Positions 21,123 through 26,302 of a DNA stretch of 33,465 nucleotides are shown piece after piece. Position numbers and translations under genes: made by a program. The notes below the pieces were generated by a model. The model was not told where the DNA came from. It searched no databases and worked only from the letters and a program-made list of their open reading frames with translations. The stretch comes from Flavobacteriales bacterium. Lineage in GTDB: Bacteria; Bacteroidota; Bacteroidia; Flavobacteriales; Flavobacteriaceae. Position 1 is the first letter of the stretch. Each line of letters begins with the position of its first letter. The DNA lies in NCBI GenBank assembly GCA_004213645.1, contig SGZF01000011.1, forward strand, positions 1 to 33,465, read 5' to 3'.

Positions 21123-22505
21123 TTACAGTTTATAATTATCTATAAGAAAAACTAATGAGGCCATAGCAGCAGCACCTAACTCTAGTTCACGTTTATTAAT
21201 TTTATCAAAAGTGTCAGAAGCAGCATGATGAAAATCAAAATATCTTTGAGGATCAGGTCTCAAACCAGCAAGTATAACTATTCCATCTTTAAGTGGCCCA
21301 ATATCTGCACCACTTCCACCTAGAAAAAAATTATTTACTCCGTAGTTCTTAAATAATTCTTCAAATTTTTTTAGTGATTTAAATTCTTTCTCTGATGTAT
21401 CAAAACTGAAACCTCTAGGAGTAAAACCACCAGCATCAGATTCTAATGCAAAAAAATGCTTTTCATTATTTTTTCTAGCTTCTTGAGCATACTTATTTCC
21501 ACCTCTTAGTCCATTCTCTTCATTTGCGAATAATACTATTCTAATAGTTCTTTTTGGCACATAATTTAAATTTTTAAAAATTCTTAAAACCTCCATTGAC
21601 TGAACTATTCCAGCACCATCATCATGACTTCCGTCACCTAAATCCCATGAATCAAGATGCCCTCCAACAACAATTATTTCCTCAGGTTTTTTTGAGCCTT
21701 TAATTTCTCCAATTACACTATGAGTTAATACATCAGGATAATTTTTAGAGTTTTGTCTAAAGAAAAACTTTATGTTAGAATTTAATGATAGCATTGAACT
21801 TAAAAGTTCTGCGCCATTTGTGCTTATTGCAGCAGCTGGTATTCTTTGATTAAGTTTTAATCCATCGTAATACATAGATCCTGTATGAGGATAATCATCA
21901 AGAGTTGTTGTCATAGATCTAACTATAACACCAACAGCTCCAAGTTTTGCAGCTTCAGTTGCACCATTAGTCCTTTGATTTACACTTCCACTATATGCTT
22001 GGAATGTATTAATTATTGTATCATCCATTGGACGATTATAAAAAATAATTTTACCACTGACTGAATCCTTTCCTAATTCTCTTAACTCATTAAAACTTTT
22101 TACCTCAATTACTCTTGCAGAAATACCAATTGATGGAGTAGAAATTGAACCACCTAAAGCGGCTATTGGAACAGAAATAGTATTACCCGGTGTAGTTTCA
22201 ATATGAGCATATTCAGGCGCACCTCTCACCCATTTTGGAACCATTACTGGCTGAAGCCAAACAGAATCAAGACCTATTGAATCTAATTCTTCTTTTCCCC
22301 ACTTTACTGATCTATCATAATTAATTGAGCCTGATAACCTCCCTCCTATTTGATTTGAAAGATAATCAAGCCATTGATATGATTTTCCATTAGATAGAGC
22401 TTCATCATATATATTATCAATAAATATTAGATCATTATTAGTAGAATTTTGAGAAAATGATGAAGAAATGCAAACTATTATAAATAGATAGTTGAAGAGT
22501 CTCAT
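21123..22505 (-). CDS. secreted M28-family metallopeptidase
   Basis: A predicted exported aminopeptidase or carboxypeptidase using two zinc ions. Numbering uses the ATG at 22505, preferred because it gives a clean signal peptide (MRLFNYLFIIVCISSSFS, then QNS). The frame also runs to an ATG at 22541, but that prefix is not signal-like and would overlap the upstream gene. A protease-associated-type insert lies at about 100-260. The metal ligands and general base are visible: GGHLDSWD (His283), SHDDGAG (about Asp295), EENGLRGG (Glu329/Glu330), LESDAGGF (Asp357) and HHAASD (His427). The length of 460 residues matches secreted M28 proteins of aquatic bacteria. No C-terminal sorting domain is evident. 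The gene lies four bases after the response regulator, an unusual pairing that may reflect only operon packing. Confidence 0.93.
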   Translation of the reverse strand: MRLFNYLFIIVCISSSFSQNSTNNDLIFIDNIYDEALSNGKSYQWLDYLSNQIGGRLSGSINYDRSVKWGKEELDSIGLDSVWLQPVMVPKWVRGAPEYAHIETTPGNTISVPIAALGGSISTPSIGISARVIEVKSFNELRELGKDSVSGKIIFYNRPMDDTIINTFQAYSGSVNQRTNGATEAAKLGAVGVIVRSMTTTLDDYPHTGSMYYDGLKLNQRIPAAAISTNGAELLSSMLSLNSNIKFFFRQNSKNYPDVLTHSVIGEIKGSKKPEEIIVVGGHLDSWDLGDGSHDDGAGIVQSMEVLRIFKNLNYVPKRTIRIVLFANEENGLRGGNKYAQEARKNNEKHFFALESDAGGFTPRGFSFDTSEKEFKSLKKFEELFKNYGVNNFFLGGSGADIGPLKDGIVILAGLRPDPQRYFDFHHAASDTFDKINKRELELGAAAMASLVFLIDNYKL

Positions 22506-22509
22506 ATAA

Positions 22510-23676
22510 TTATTTTTTTGCTGCAAACAGACTAACATCATCCTTAGTAATGGGATTTCCTCCGAGAATAATTAATCTTTCAATAACATTTCTAAGTTCT
22601 CTAATATTCCCTGACCAATTGTATTCCTCAAGAAGTTTTATGGAATCTTTGTCAAACTGTTTTTTTTCTATTCCTTGTTCATTCGATATTAATTTAGAAA
22701 AATGTTCAATAAGAGGTGGTATATCATTTTTTCTTTTACTTAATTCTGGAACCTCAACCATAATAACAGCAAGTCTATGGTAAAGATCTTCCCTGAAATT
22801 CCCAATATCAATTTCTTTTTTTAAATCCTTATTTGTTGCTGCTATCACTCTTACATCAACACTAATATCTTTTTGACTTCCTACTCTTTGAATCTTGTTT
22901 TCTTCAAGAGCTCTTAGTACTTTTGCTTGAGCTGCAAGACTCATATCTCCAATTTCATCTAAAAATAAAGTTCCATTATTAGCAGCCTCAAATTTTCCTT
23001 GTCTATCCTTTACTGCAGATGTAAATGAACCTTTTAAATGTCCAAAAAGTTCACTTTCAATTAGCTCTGAGGGAATAGCGGCACAATTTACTTCAATAAA
23101 AGGAGATTTACTTCTAGAACTCTTCTGATGAATATTATGGGCAACAAGCTCTTTACCAGTTCCACTTTCACCGGTTATTAGAACTCTTGCCTCTGTTTGA
23201 GCAACTTTATCAATAATTGAATGTATCTCCATAATAGATTCAGAATTACCTATCATGTCATACTTCTTTGCAACCTTTTGCCTCAGAATTTTATTTTCAG
23301 TTACTAACTCCTTTTTCTCAAGAGCATTTCGAACTGAATTAATTAGTCTATTTAGATCTGGCGGTTTTGATATAAAATCATAAGCTCCAAGTTTCATAGA
23401 TTCAACTGCAGTTTCAATATTACCATGACCTGTCAACATTATAAATGGAAGTAAAGTATTAATTTTTCTAGTTCTTTGAAGTAAATCAATACCATCAATT
23501 ATTGGCATTTTTATGTCACAAAGAACTAAATCAAATGATTCTTTTTTAATAAGGTCTAGGCCCTTTTTTCCATCAGAAGCCTCTTGAATTTCAAAGCTAG
23601 AATCTTCTTCTAATAAGATTCTTACAAGAACTCTTCTTATTGGTTCCTCATCTTCAATTATAAGGATTTTACTCAT
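22510..23676 (-). CDS. sigma-54-type response regulator (NtrC family) without a DNA-binding domain
   Basis: A two-component activator that should remodel sigma-54 RNA polymerase using ATP. The receiver domain (about 3-115) has the acidic pocket EDEE, phospho-acceptor Asp54 (LCDIKMP), Thr82 and Lys104. The AAA+ domain (about 140-370) has Walker A GESGTGKE (169-176), GSFTSA (216-221) in place of the usual GAFTGA sigma-54 contact loop, Walker B LFLDEIGD (237-244), arginines in NFREDLYHR (293-301) and WSGNIRELRN (354-363). The protein ends at 388, 18 residues after RLIILGG, so the Fis-type helix-turn-helix normally found at the C-terminus is missing. I recall related Bacteroidota proteins of the same build. 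The gene follows dnaJ by 35 bases. No partner histidine kinase is in the window. Confidence 0.93.
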   Translation of the reverse strand: MSKILIIEDEEPIRRVLVRILLEEDSSFEIQEASDGKKGLDLIKKESFDLVLCDIKMPIIDGIDLLQRTRKINTLLPFIMLTGHGNIETAVESMKLGAYDFISKPPDLNRLINSVRNALEKKELVTENKILRQKVAKKYDMIGNSESIMEIHSIIDKVAQTEARVLITGESGTGKELVAHNIHQKSSRSKSPFIEVNCAAIPSELIESELFGHLKGSFTSAVKDRQGKFEAANNGTLFLDEIGDMSLAAQAKVLRALEENKIQRVGSQKDISVDVRVIAATNKDLKKEIDIGNFREDLYHRLAVIMVEVPELSKRKNDIPPLIEHFSKLISNEQGIEKKQFDKDSIKLLEEYNWSGNIRELRNVIERLIILGGNPITKDDVSLFAAKK

Positions 23677-25329: not shown

Positions 25330-25350
25330 TAGCTGCTTTTTTTAATTAAC

Positions 25351-25366
25351 TGCAATTTTATTGCCA
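25351..25366 (-). promoter_or_regulatory. sigma-54-like -24/-12 promoter upstream of grpE
   Basis: Read on the minus strand, TGGCAATAAAATTGCA matches the sigma-54 consensus TGGCAyr-N4-TTGCw at every strongly conserved base, with exactly ten bases between the GG and the GC. Only the weak y and r positions differ. A start near 25340 would give a leader of about 11 bases before the grpE ATG. A sigma-54-type activator is encoded two genes downstream. The core is also a short inverted repeat (GCAAT-AAA-ATTGC), so an operator is an alternative reading. Confidence 0.5.
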
Positions 25367-25379
25367 TATTGATTATATG
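25365..25379. promoter_or_regulatory. small dyad (CATAT-N5-ATATG) abutting the -24 box
   Basis: A perfect five-base inverted repeat with a five-base spacer lies immediately upstream of, and touches, the sigma-54-like -24 element. It could be an operator half-site pair, but short AT-rich dyads are common in such DNA. Confidence 0.25.
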
Positions 25380-25393
25380 CCAGATTGTCATAC

Positions 25394-26302
25394 CTAAAGT
25401 GATAAATCTAATAATGCATCATCTAGTTCATCATAAATAAACTTATAGTCATTGAGGTAAATTGACTCAACATTTTGACTAGATAGAATAATTTCAGACA
25501 TCTCACCAAATATTTTTTTAACAAAAAAAGATGGAATGTTAGGAAAAATTACTTTTGATTTATTAATAGATGCAATTTTATTTATTAATTCAATTTGTCT
25601 CACAGGATTTGGTGATACAAGATTAAATATTCCTTTCCTTGACTTCTCTGAGCTAGATATAAATATATTAGCTACATCTTCCTCATGAATCCAAGATTGC
25701 CACTGGTTTCCTTTACCAAGAGGAGACAAAATATAAAATCTAGATAGTAAGCTACATATTTTAAATAATCCACCTGATTTAGATAGAACAAGACCTATTC
25801 TCATTGTTGAGAATGATATATCAGGAAGTTTAAATTGAAATTCACTAGCCTTATCTTCCCATTTTATAACTACTTGGTTAATGAACGAGTTAGTATCATT
25901 TATTGAATGTTTTTCATTTGAAATATTTATTAAAGAATTTTCATATGCTGAAATCCCAGATGCTGAAATAAATGATCTTATTTTAATTTTTTTATTATAT
26001 ATATGATTTAAAATAAAAGAAGTAGAATTTAATCTACTGTTAAGAATTTTAGACTTATTTTTTTTTGACCAATTAATAAAAATACTAAATCCTGCAAGAT
26101 TGATTACAGAATCTACACCAACAAAACATTCACTATTAATTAATTTTAAATTAGGGTCCCAATAAAAATATTTTAAGTTTATATTATTGGATATCAAATT
26201 CTTATTTCTACTTAGAATATTTACTTTATAGTTTTTAGATAATGCAAGCTTAGTGATTTTTTTACCTATCGTTCCTGAACCACCTGTTATTAATAGCTTC
26301 AT
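25394..26302 (-). CDS. SDR-family NAD(P)-dependent epimerase (TIGR01777 / YfcH / SDR39U1 type)
   Basis: An atypical extended short-chain dehydrogenase whose natural substrate is unknown even in well-studied relatives. The dinucleotide-binding loop is GGSGTIG (7-13), followed by NLAGFSI (about 70-76). SASGISAYEN (about 113-122) is the position where the family usually has SASAxGYYG. WQSWIHEEDVANIF (about 201-214) is the conserved late motif. The C-terminal DUF1731 portion is present (from about 245: FPNIPSFFVKKIFGEMSEIILSSQNV). The length of 302 residues is normal. It lies 64 bases upstream of grpE on the same strand and is divergent from ilvE across 29 bases. Old database labels call such proteins cell-division inhibitor SulA, which is a misannotation. 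Confidence 0.9.
   Translation of the reverse strand: MKLLITGGSGTIGKKITKLALSKNYKVNILSRNKNLISNNINLKYFYWDPNLKLINSECFVGVDSVINLAGFSIFINWSKKNKSKILNSRLNSTSFILNHIYNKKIKIRSFISASGISAYENSLINISNEKHSINDTNSFINQVVIKWEDKASEFQFKLPDISFSTMRIGLVLSKSGGLFKICSLLSRFYILSPLGKGNQWQSWIHEEDVANIFISSSEKSRKGIFNLVSPNPVRQIELINKIASINKSKVIFPNIPSFFVKKIFGEMSEIILSSQNVESIYLNDYKFIYDELDDALLDLSL

Follow-up and report, generated by a model that had tools for sequence, protein, structure and literature searches.

The window, by which we mean the whole stretch of 33,465 nucleotides that was analysed, carries on its minus strand a TIGR01777-family gene, grpE, dnaJ and a gene for a receiver-AAA+ protein of the NtrC kind, all reading in the same direction. 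The features of this locus, and the activator gene found elsewhere that is considered below, are listed in Table 1. The TIGR01777-family gene and grpE are separated by a 64-bp gap (25330-25393), which holds TGGCA-N6-TTGCA. The minus strand from 25366 to 25351 reads TGGCAATAAAATTGCA, in which the GG-N10-GC spacing is exact, as the earlier note had stated for this strand and position before grpE. The distance from this sequence to the ATG of grpE is 21 bases, which replaces the 22 bases given there.

Table 1. Features of the grpE-dnaJ locus and the groESL-linked activator gene
Feature	Position	Strand	Basis or remark
TIGR01777-family gene	25394-26302	-	same strand as grpE
Dyad TGACAATCTGGCA (TGNCA-N3-TGNCA), candidate activator-binding site	25378..25390	-	located at about -51 to -39 relative to the predicted start
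-24 element TGGCA	25362..25366	-	sequence match and conservation
-12 element TTGCA	25351..25355	-	sequence match and conservation
Predicted 5' leader	25330..25340	-	inferred start about 25340, 12 bases past the -12 C, from sigma-54 geometry
grpE, 166 aa	24829..25329	-	PF01025, E 8e-37
dnaJ, 370 aa	23712..24824	-	PF00226, PF00684, PF01556; 4 bases after grpE
Receiver + AAA+ protein of the NtrC kind	22510..23676	-	no DNA-binding domain; loop GSFTSA; 35 bases after dnaJ
PspF-like activator	L130 2178-3434		AAA+ with GAFTGA, Fis-type HTH (HTH_8), no receiver

The sequence at 25351-25366 is the sole exact match to TGGCA-N6-TTGCA within the window, and the five sites that match TGGCA-N6-TTGCW with one mismatch (2459, 15173, 15380, 17024 and 20360) are all intragenic. 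In 100 dinucleotide shuffles of the window, the ten-base core averages 0.10 matches, and 10 of the 100 shuffles contain at least one. Because of these shuffle counts, the ten-base match is suggestive by itself and not decisive. In the whole genome, TGGCA-N6-TTGCW occurs exactly at seven sites; the remaining six lie within open reading frames and were set aside as promoters for that location.

Upstream of the promoter sequence, the minus strand contains a dyad that reads TGACA-ATC-TGGCA (25390-25378) and begins 24 bp before the first T of the promoter. The dyad combined with TGGCA-N6-TTG has a single match in the window, and none of the 100 shuffles contains it; the combined pattern had, however, been formulated with the site and its relatives already in view.

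The conservation of the element before grpE was determined in three sets of relatives. The same-genus set consists of 15 grpE loci, the window's own included; among the other genomes of the genus, which numbers 25 genomes in all, are those in which the contig ends or the gene went unmatched. All 15 carry the full dyad, TGGCA and TTG with a constant spacing of 24, and 14 of them carry the GC of the -12 element; the check that the earlier note had named, of the -24 and -12 bases in relatives with the same gene order, speaks for the promoter. An additional grpE copy of the genus outside these 15, which lies where a contig of G005 ends (L119), reads TTGT at -12. The second set is made up of named grpE loci, the best 80 of 584 relatives; related species among them are not independent, and five appear to be the same assemblies as loci of the genus set. 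The element or a near form of it is present in all of these best 80 of 584 (76 at 16 of 16 letters, two at 15 and two at 14), and only 2 of 1600 first-order resamples reach 14 letters. Across the same best 80 of 584, the eight fixed letters of the dyad are all kept in 80, the TGGC of the -24 element in 80, the A that follows it in 78, and the C at -12 in 65. The GrpE relatives nearest to the window among the named ones come from uncultured Bacteroidetes and Flavobacteriaceae genomes, and judging from these names the window would belong to an uncultured member of Flavobacteriaceae. In the third set, 20 further genomes at the level of the order, 15 have TGGCA-N6-TTG in full; the dyad is intact in seven, and 15 keep at least seven of its eight letters. 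The best-scoring grpE match in Capnocytophaga (L273, L323) departs from TTG at the expected place, either by spacing or by bases. A scan of viral contigs with GrpE returned no relative.

The grpE loci were used to define a pattern for genome searches, consisting of TGNCANNNTGNCA, 10-13 bases, TGGNA, six bases and TTG. In the window's own 1.04-Mb genome, which is 78% complete, this pattern matches at three places only, before grpE-dnaJ, dnaK and htpG, where the last two genes belong to the HSP70 and HSP90 families and their sites played no part in building the pattern. The dnaK site reads TGGCA...TTGA, and the htpG site, which is less perfect, reads TGGTA...TTGT. A stricter pattern, in which TGGCA is required, matches in 45 of 60 genomes, the own genome included, with 24 of 24 other genomes of the genus, 12 of 12 others of the family and 8 of 23 others of the order. 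The matched places that were read in relatives number 31, of which 12 lie before grpE and 17 before dnaK, and two have no gene found downstream. At L101 (G059:C6:109779-109817), a full match to dyad and promoter stands with no downstream gene found in the stretch that was read. In the phylum sample, 54 of 296 genomes match (the own genome, 28 of 29 in the family, 0 of 6 in the order, 21 of 37 in the class and 4 of 223 others), and by these group counts the strict form is well represented in the family, still frequent in the class, and rare in the rest of the phylum. For the whole-genome search that gave the seven exact TGGCA-N6-TTGCW sites, a reversed pattern served as control and gave 6 and 6 matches compared to 72 and 60; it is a poor control because it contains CpG, and no conclusion is based on it.

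The region before groES was examined for 15 of the 25 genus genomes and for four loci of the family. In 14 of the 15 genus loci, the dyad is located 46 bp from TGGCA though the intervening bases vary, and in G020 it is located 25 bp from TGGCA, that is, 21 bp nearer. A protein bound to one face of the DNA could leave such shifts of about two helical turns. We soften this argument because the four family loci give 25 (with one half-site imperfect), 45, 55, and one locus in which neither TGGCA nor the dyad was found. The -12 region of groES in the genus reads RTGAA in place of TTGCA, and the groES promoter is therefore weaker evidence for sigma-54. The GC at -12 is likewise not kept in the rest of the set, as the TTGA of dnaK and the TTGT of htpG show, and among the 17 dnaK sites read, C is found at -12 in one.

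Two candidates for the activator were compared. In the own genome, two proteins match Sigma54_activat clearly (E 8e-73 and 2e-67; a further five, weaker matches were left aside), compared to the three activators of Flavobacterium psychrophilum, whose account leaves the choice undecided among three PF00158 proteins (PMC9723704). The protein encoded in the window consists of a receiver and a sigma-54 AAA+ domain with Walker B present; the domain search found no HTH family in it, and it ends 26 residues past GN-x-RELR. In a set of 37 orthologues with full frames, own included and eleven partial frames excluded, this C-terminal tail is 23-26 residues long in 36, and the motif used for the measurement was not found in the other. 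The loop of these 37 reads GSFTSA in 20, GAFTSA in 13, GSFTGA in four and GAFTGA in none. Orthologues of this kind, HTH-less and with altered GAFTGA loops, are distributed across the order.

The PspF-like protein is encoded in a run of genes for a MiaB-like radical-SAM protein, the activator, lptE, one unnamed gene, secG, groES and groEL. As in PspF, an AAA+ domain is joined to a Fis HTH with no sensor domain; the differences from PspF are that about 185 residues follow GN-x-R-x-LR and that the proposed targets are chaperones. An orthologue is present in 57 of the 60 genomes; a match is obtained in 58, but that of G005 is the window-type protein, and the genomes lacking the orthologue (G005, G015 and G023) are incomplete. 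GAFTGA is found in the copy of all 30 genomes whose copy was read. In six order-level genomes that are at least 98% complete (G043, G046, G047, G051, G056 and G058), the groESL-linked protein is the only activator matched. TGGCA-N6-TTG is kept before grpE in G043, G046, G047 and G056, whereas TTG is lost in G058 and GG is changed to TG in G051; the dyad there is intact in G051, lacks a single letter in G043, G046, G056 and G058, and is present as a half only in G047. Some genomes of the genus also show the groESL-linked protein alone, but grpE is unmatched in them too. The groESL-linked protein is favoured because it is the sole matched activator in six genomes that keep much of the element, and, as judged from sequence, this GAFTGA and Fis-HTH protein is likely the better activator candidate than the protein of the window. 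G051, a 344,793-base contig (L222) of the same order, keeps rpoN together with its single matched sigma-54 activator.

Taken as a whole, the results make it quite probable that the segment from 25390 to 25351 (minus strand) is the sigma-54 promoter of the grpE-dnaJ operon, that the groESL-linked PspF-like activator binds the dyad, and that the element serves chaperone control. An arrangement in which the receiver-AAA+ protein of the window activates from solution in the manner of FlgR, the dyad belonging to some other factor, appears unlikely to us. The window protein resembles FlgR in having a receiver and an AAA+ domain, no HTH and a changed position 5 of GAFTGA, the last two properties being described for FlgR in PMC3162934 and PMC9696931; it differs from FlgR in having S, not D, at position 5, and S also at position 2 in the window genus. 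Serine at position 5 is listed as putatively active and serine at position 2 is found in LevR (PMC3162934), and GSFTGA counts as an active loop in other work (PMC4641369, PMC6615313); the gene, moreover, stands after dnaJ in 14 of 14 other genus loci read. However, the intact GAFTGA occurs in 0 of the 37 orthologues, and six order-level genomes without a match to the protein keep at least parts of the grpE promoter, four of them TGGCA-N6-TTG. No domain of the protein is able to read the conserved dyad, and, whereas the role of FlgR is flagellar, the window protein is encoded in a chaperone operon and its activity is hypothetical. The term "self-encoded activator" in the earlier note, understood as a DNA-bound activator, is accordingly not borne out, in view of the missing HTH, the GSFTSA loop and the promoter parts kept in the six genomes lacking a match.

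The sigma factor that the proposed promoter would need is encoded in the genome. RpoN of the own genome contains all three sigma-54 domains (AID, core-binding and DNA-binding), so the presence of rpoN, which had been proposed as a check, is established; the gene was found in 60 of 60 relatives and in 294 of 296 phylum genomes, and in the two phylum genomes without an rpoN match (94% and 88% complete, fragmented) the element is missing too. In other bacteria, the same kind of target genes is under heat-shock control by HrcA/CIRCE and RpoH. The present lineage differs in that none of 60 genomes gave a match to HrcA and that the own genome, 78% complete, contains a single Sigma70_r2 protein (G000:C28:42123-42326, L326). 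Since only this one Sigma70_r2 protein was matched, no ECF sigma factor is seen in the 78%-complete genome.

In F. psychrophilum, RNA-seq of 5' ends places the sigma-54 motif SM4 at grpE-dnaJ, dnaK, htpG, groES-groEL, lon and clpB (PMC9723704). The SM4 promoters at the first four of these stand before the same genes as here and are of the -24/-12 type, and both organisms have one sigma-54 factor; the SM4 starts are mapped, whereas the start in the window is predicted from sequence, and the mutagenesis described in PMC9723704 was performed on a different operon. A regulon study of Bacteroidota (PMC12316311), whose basis is matrix prediction across genomes, likewise describes the chaperone cluster as enriched in sigma-54 regulons, with Flavobacteriia ranking highest, and treats the grpE gene of F. 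psychrophilum as sigma-54-dependent. The promoter type is thus already known, having been mapped in a cultured relative, and represents the normal flavobacterial arrangement. The earlier note had regarded sigma-54 control of chaperones as unusual; this does not apply to the family, because starts at grpE-dnaJ, dnaK, htpG and groESL are already mapped in F. psychrophilum, and the arrangement is conserved through the family sample and published (PMC9723704, PMC12316311). Its principal proposal, a sigma-54 promoter before grpE-dnaJ, is well supported by rpoN, the conservation, the copies at dnaK and htpG and the F. psychrophilum starts. It is thus very probable that the sequence at 25351-25366 is a genuine sigma-54 promoter from which grpE and dnaJ are switched on.

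The same region could be viewed as a sigma-A promoter with the -7 box TAnnTTTG (PMC9723704), with TGGCA and the dyad as half-sites of a repressor operator. This box extends over the -12 position in 56 of the 80 named grpE loci (best 80 of 584) but occurs in 0 of the 15 genus grpE loci, the window included, and in 0 of the 17 dnaK sites; these same genus grpE and dnaK sites hold TGGCA and TTG in a fixed register, which for dnaK is part of the search pattern. In favour of this view, the C at -12 is variable and TGGCA itself fits TGNCA; TGGC is, on the other hand, what the named grpE, genus grpE and dnaK sets have in common. The starts of these genes in F. psychrophilum are assigned to the sigma-54 motif and not to sigma-A motifs (PMC9723704), and we consider the sigma-A reading very improbable. 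A chance match in AT-rich DNA, to which the ten-base core in 10 of 100 shuffles and the intragenic location of six of the seven exact genome sites might point, is refuted by the conservation, which extends to all 15 genus loci and to all 80 named ones (best 80 of 584), and the combined dyad and core appear in 0 of 100 shuffles.

With the sigma-54 promoter and the groESL-linked activator as the preferred reading, the following mechanism can be proposed. The sigma-54 holoenzyme would bind TGGCA/TTGC as a closed complex, with transcription starting at about 25340, and an AAA+ activator would open this complex. The activator would be the PspF-like protein encoded near lptE-secG-groESL, which we infer to bind the TGNCA-N3-TGNCA dyad at a distance of about 25 or 46 bp upstream of the -24 element. 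Since dnaK, htpG and probably groESL would be served by the same element, it would control the chaperones in this lineage, for which HrcA searches gave no match. A response of the grpE-dnaJ promoter to stress is also proposed.

A wider form of this proposal seems to us about as probable as its opposite. According to it, the chaperones of Flavobacteriaceae (grpE-dnaJ, dnaK, htpG and groESL) would be under one sigma-54 circuit, in which a sensor-less Fis-HTH activator encoded near groESL acts on an unusually close TGNCA-N3-TGNCA (about 25 or 46 bp, a difference of about two helical turns). The circuit would persist down to genomes of about 1 Mb, and rpoN with the activator down to about 0.34 Mb, perhaps because sigma-54 is kept for chaperone control. 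This would offer a possible reason why small flavobacterial genomes, and one same-order genome of about 345 kb, keep rpoN. The analysis also suggests how bacteria without a detected HrcA or second sigma-70-type factor, the own genome being incomplete, can control their chaperones, and it names concrete candidates both for the activator and for the site to which this protein would bind.

The position of the dyad is different from that of activator sites in Clostridiales, most of which lie 100-250 bp upstream (PMC6615313), compared to about 25 or 46 bp from the -24 element in the flavobacterial loci. The dyad is also an addition to the F. psychrophilum account: term searches of the main texts of PMC9723704 and PMC12316311 returned no mention of an activator site, and neither the dyad nor the 21-bp shift that it shows at groES came up in the literature searches. 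The dyad, with this shift, and the likely activator gene may thus be new details of a known promoter type.

The gene for the receiver-AAA+ protein is possibly co-transcribed with grpE-dnaJ. At the end of this gene, the frame of an M28 peptidase, if read from its first ATG, overlaps the NtrC-type gene by 32 bases (22505-22541); a later ATG (MRLFNYLF...) looks like the more natural start of the peptidase and would provide it with a signal peptide.
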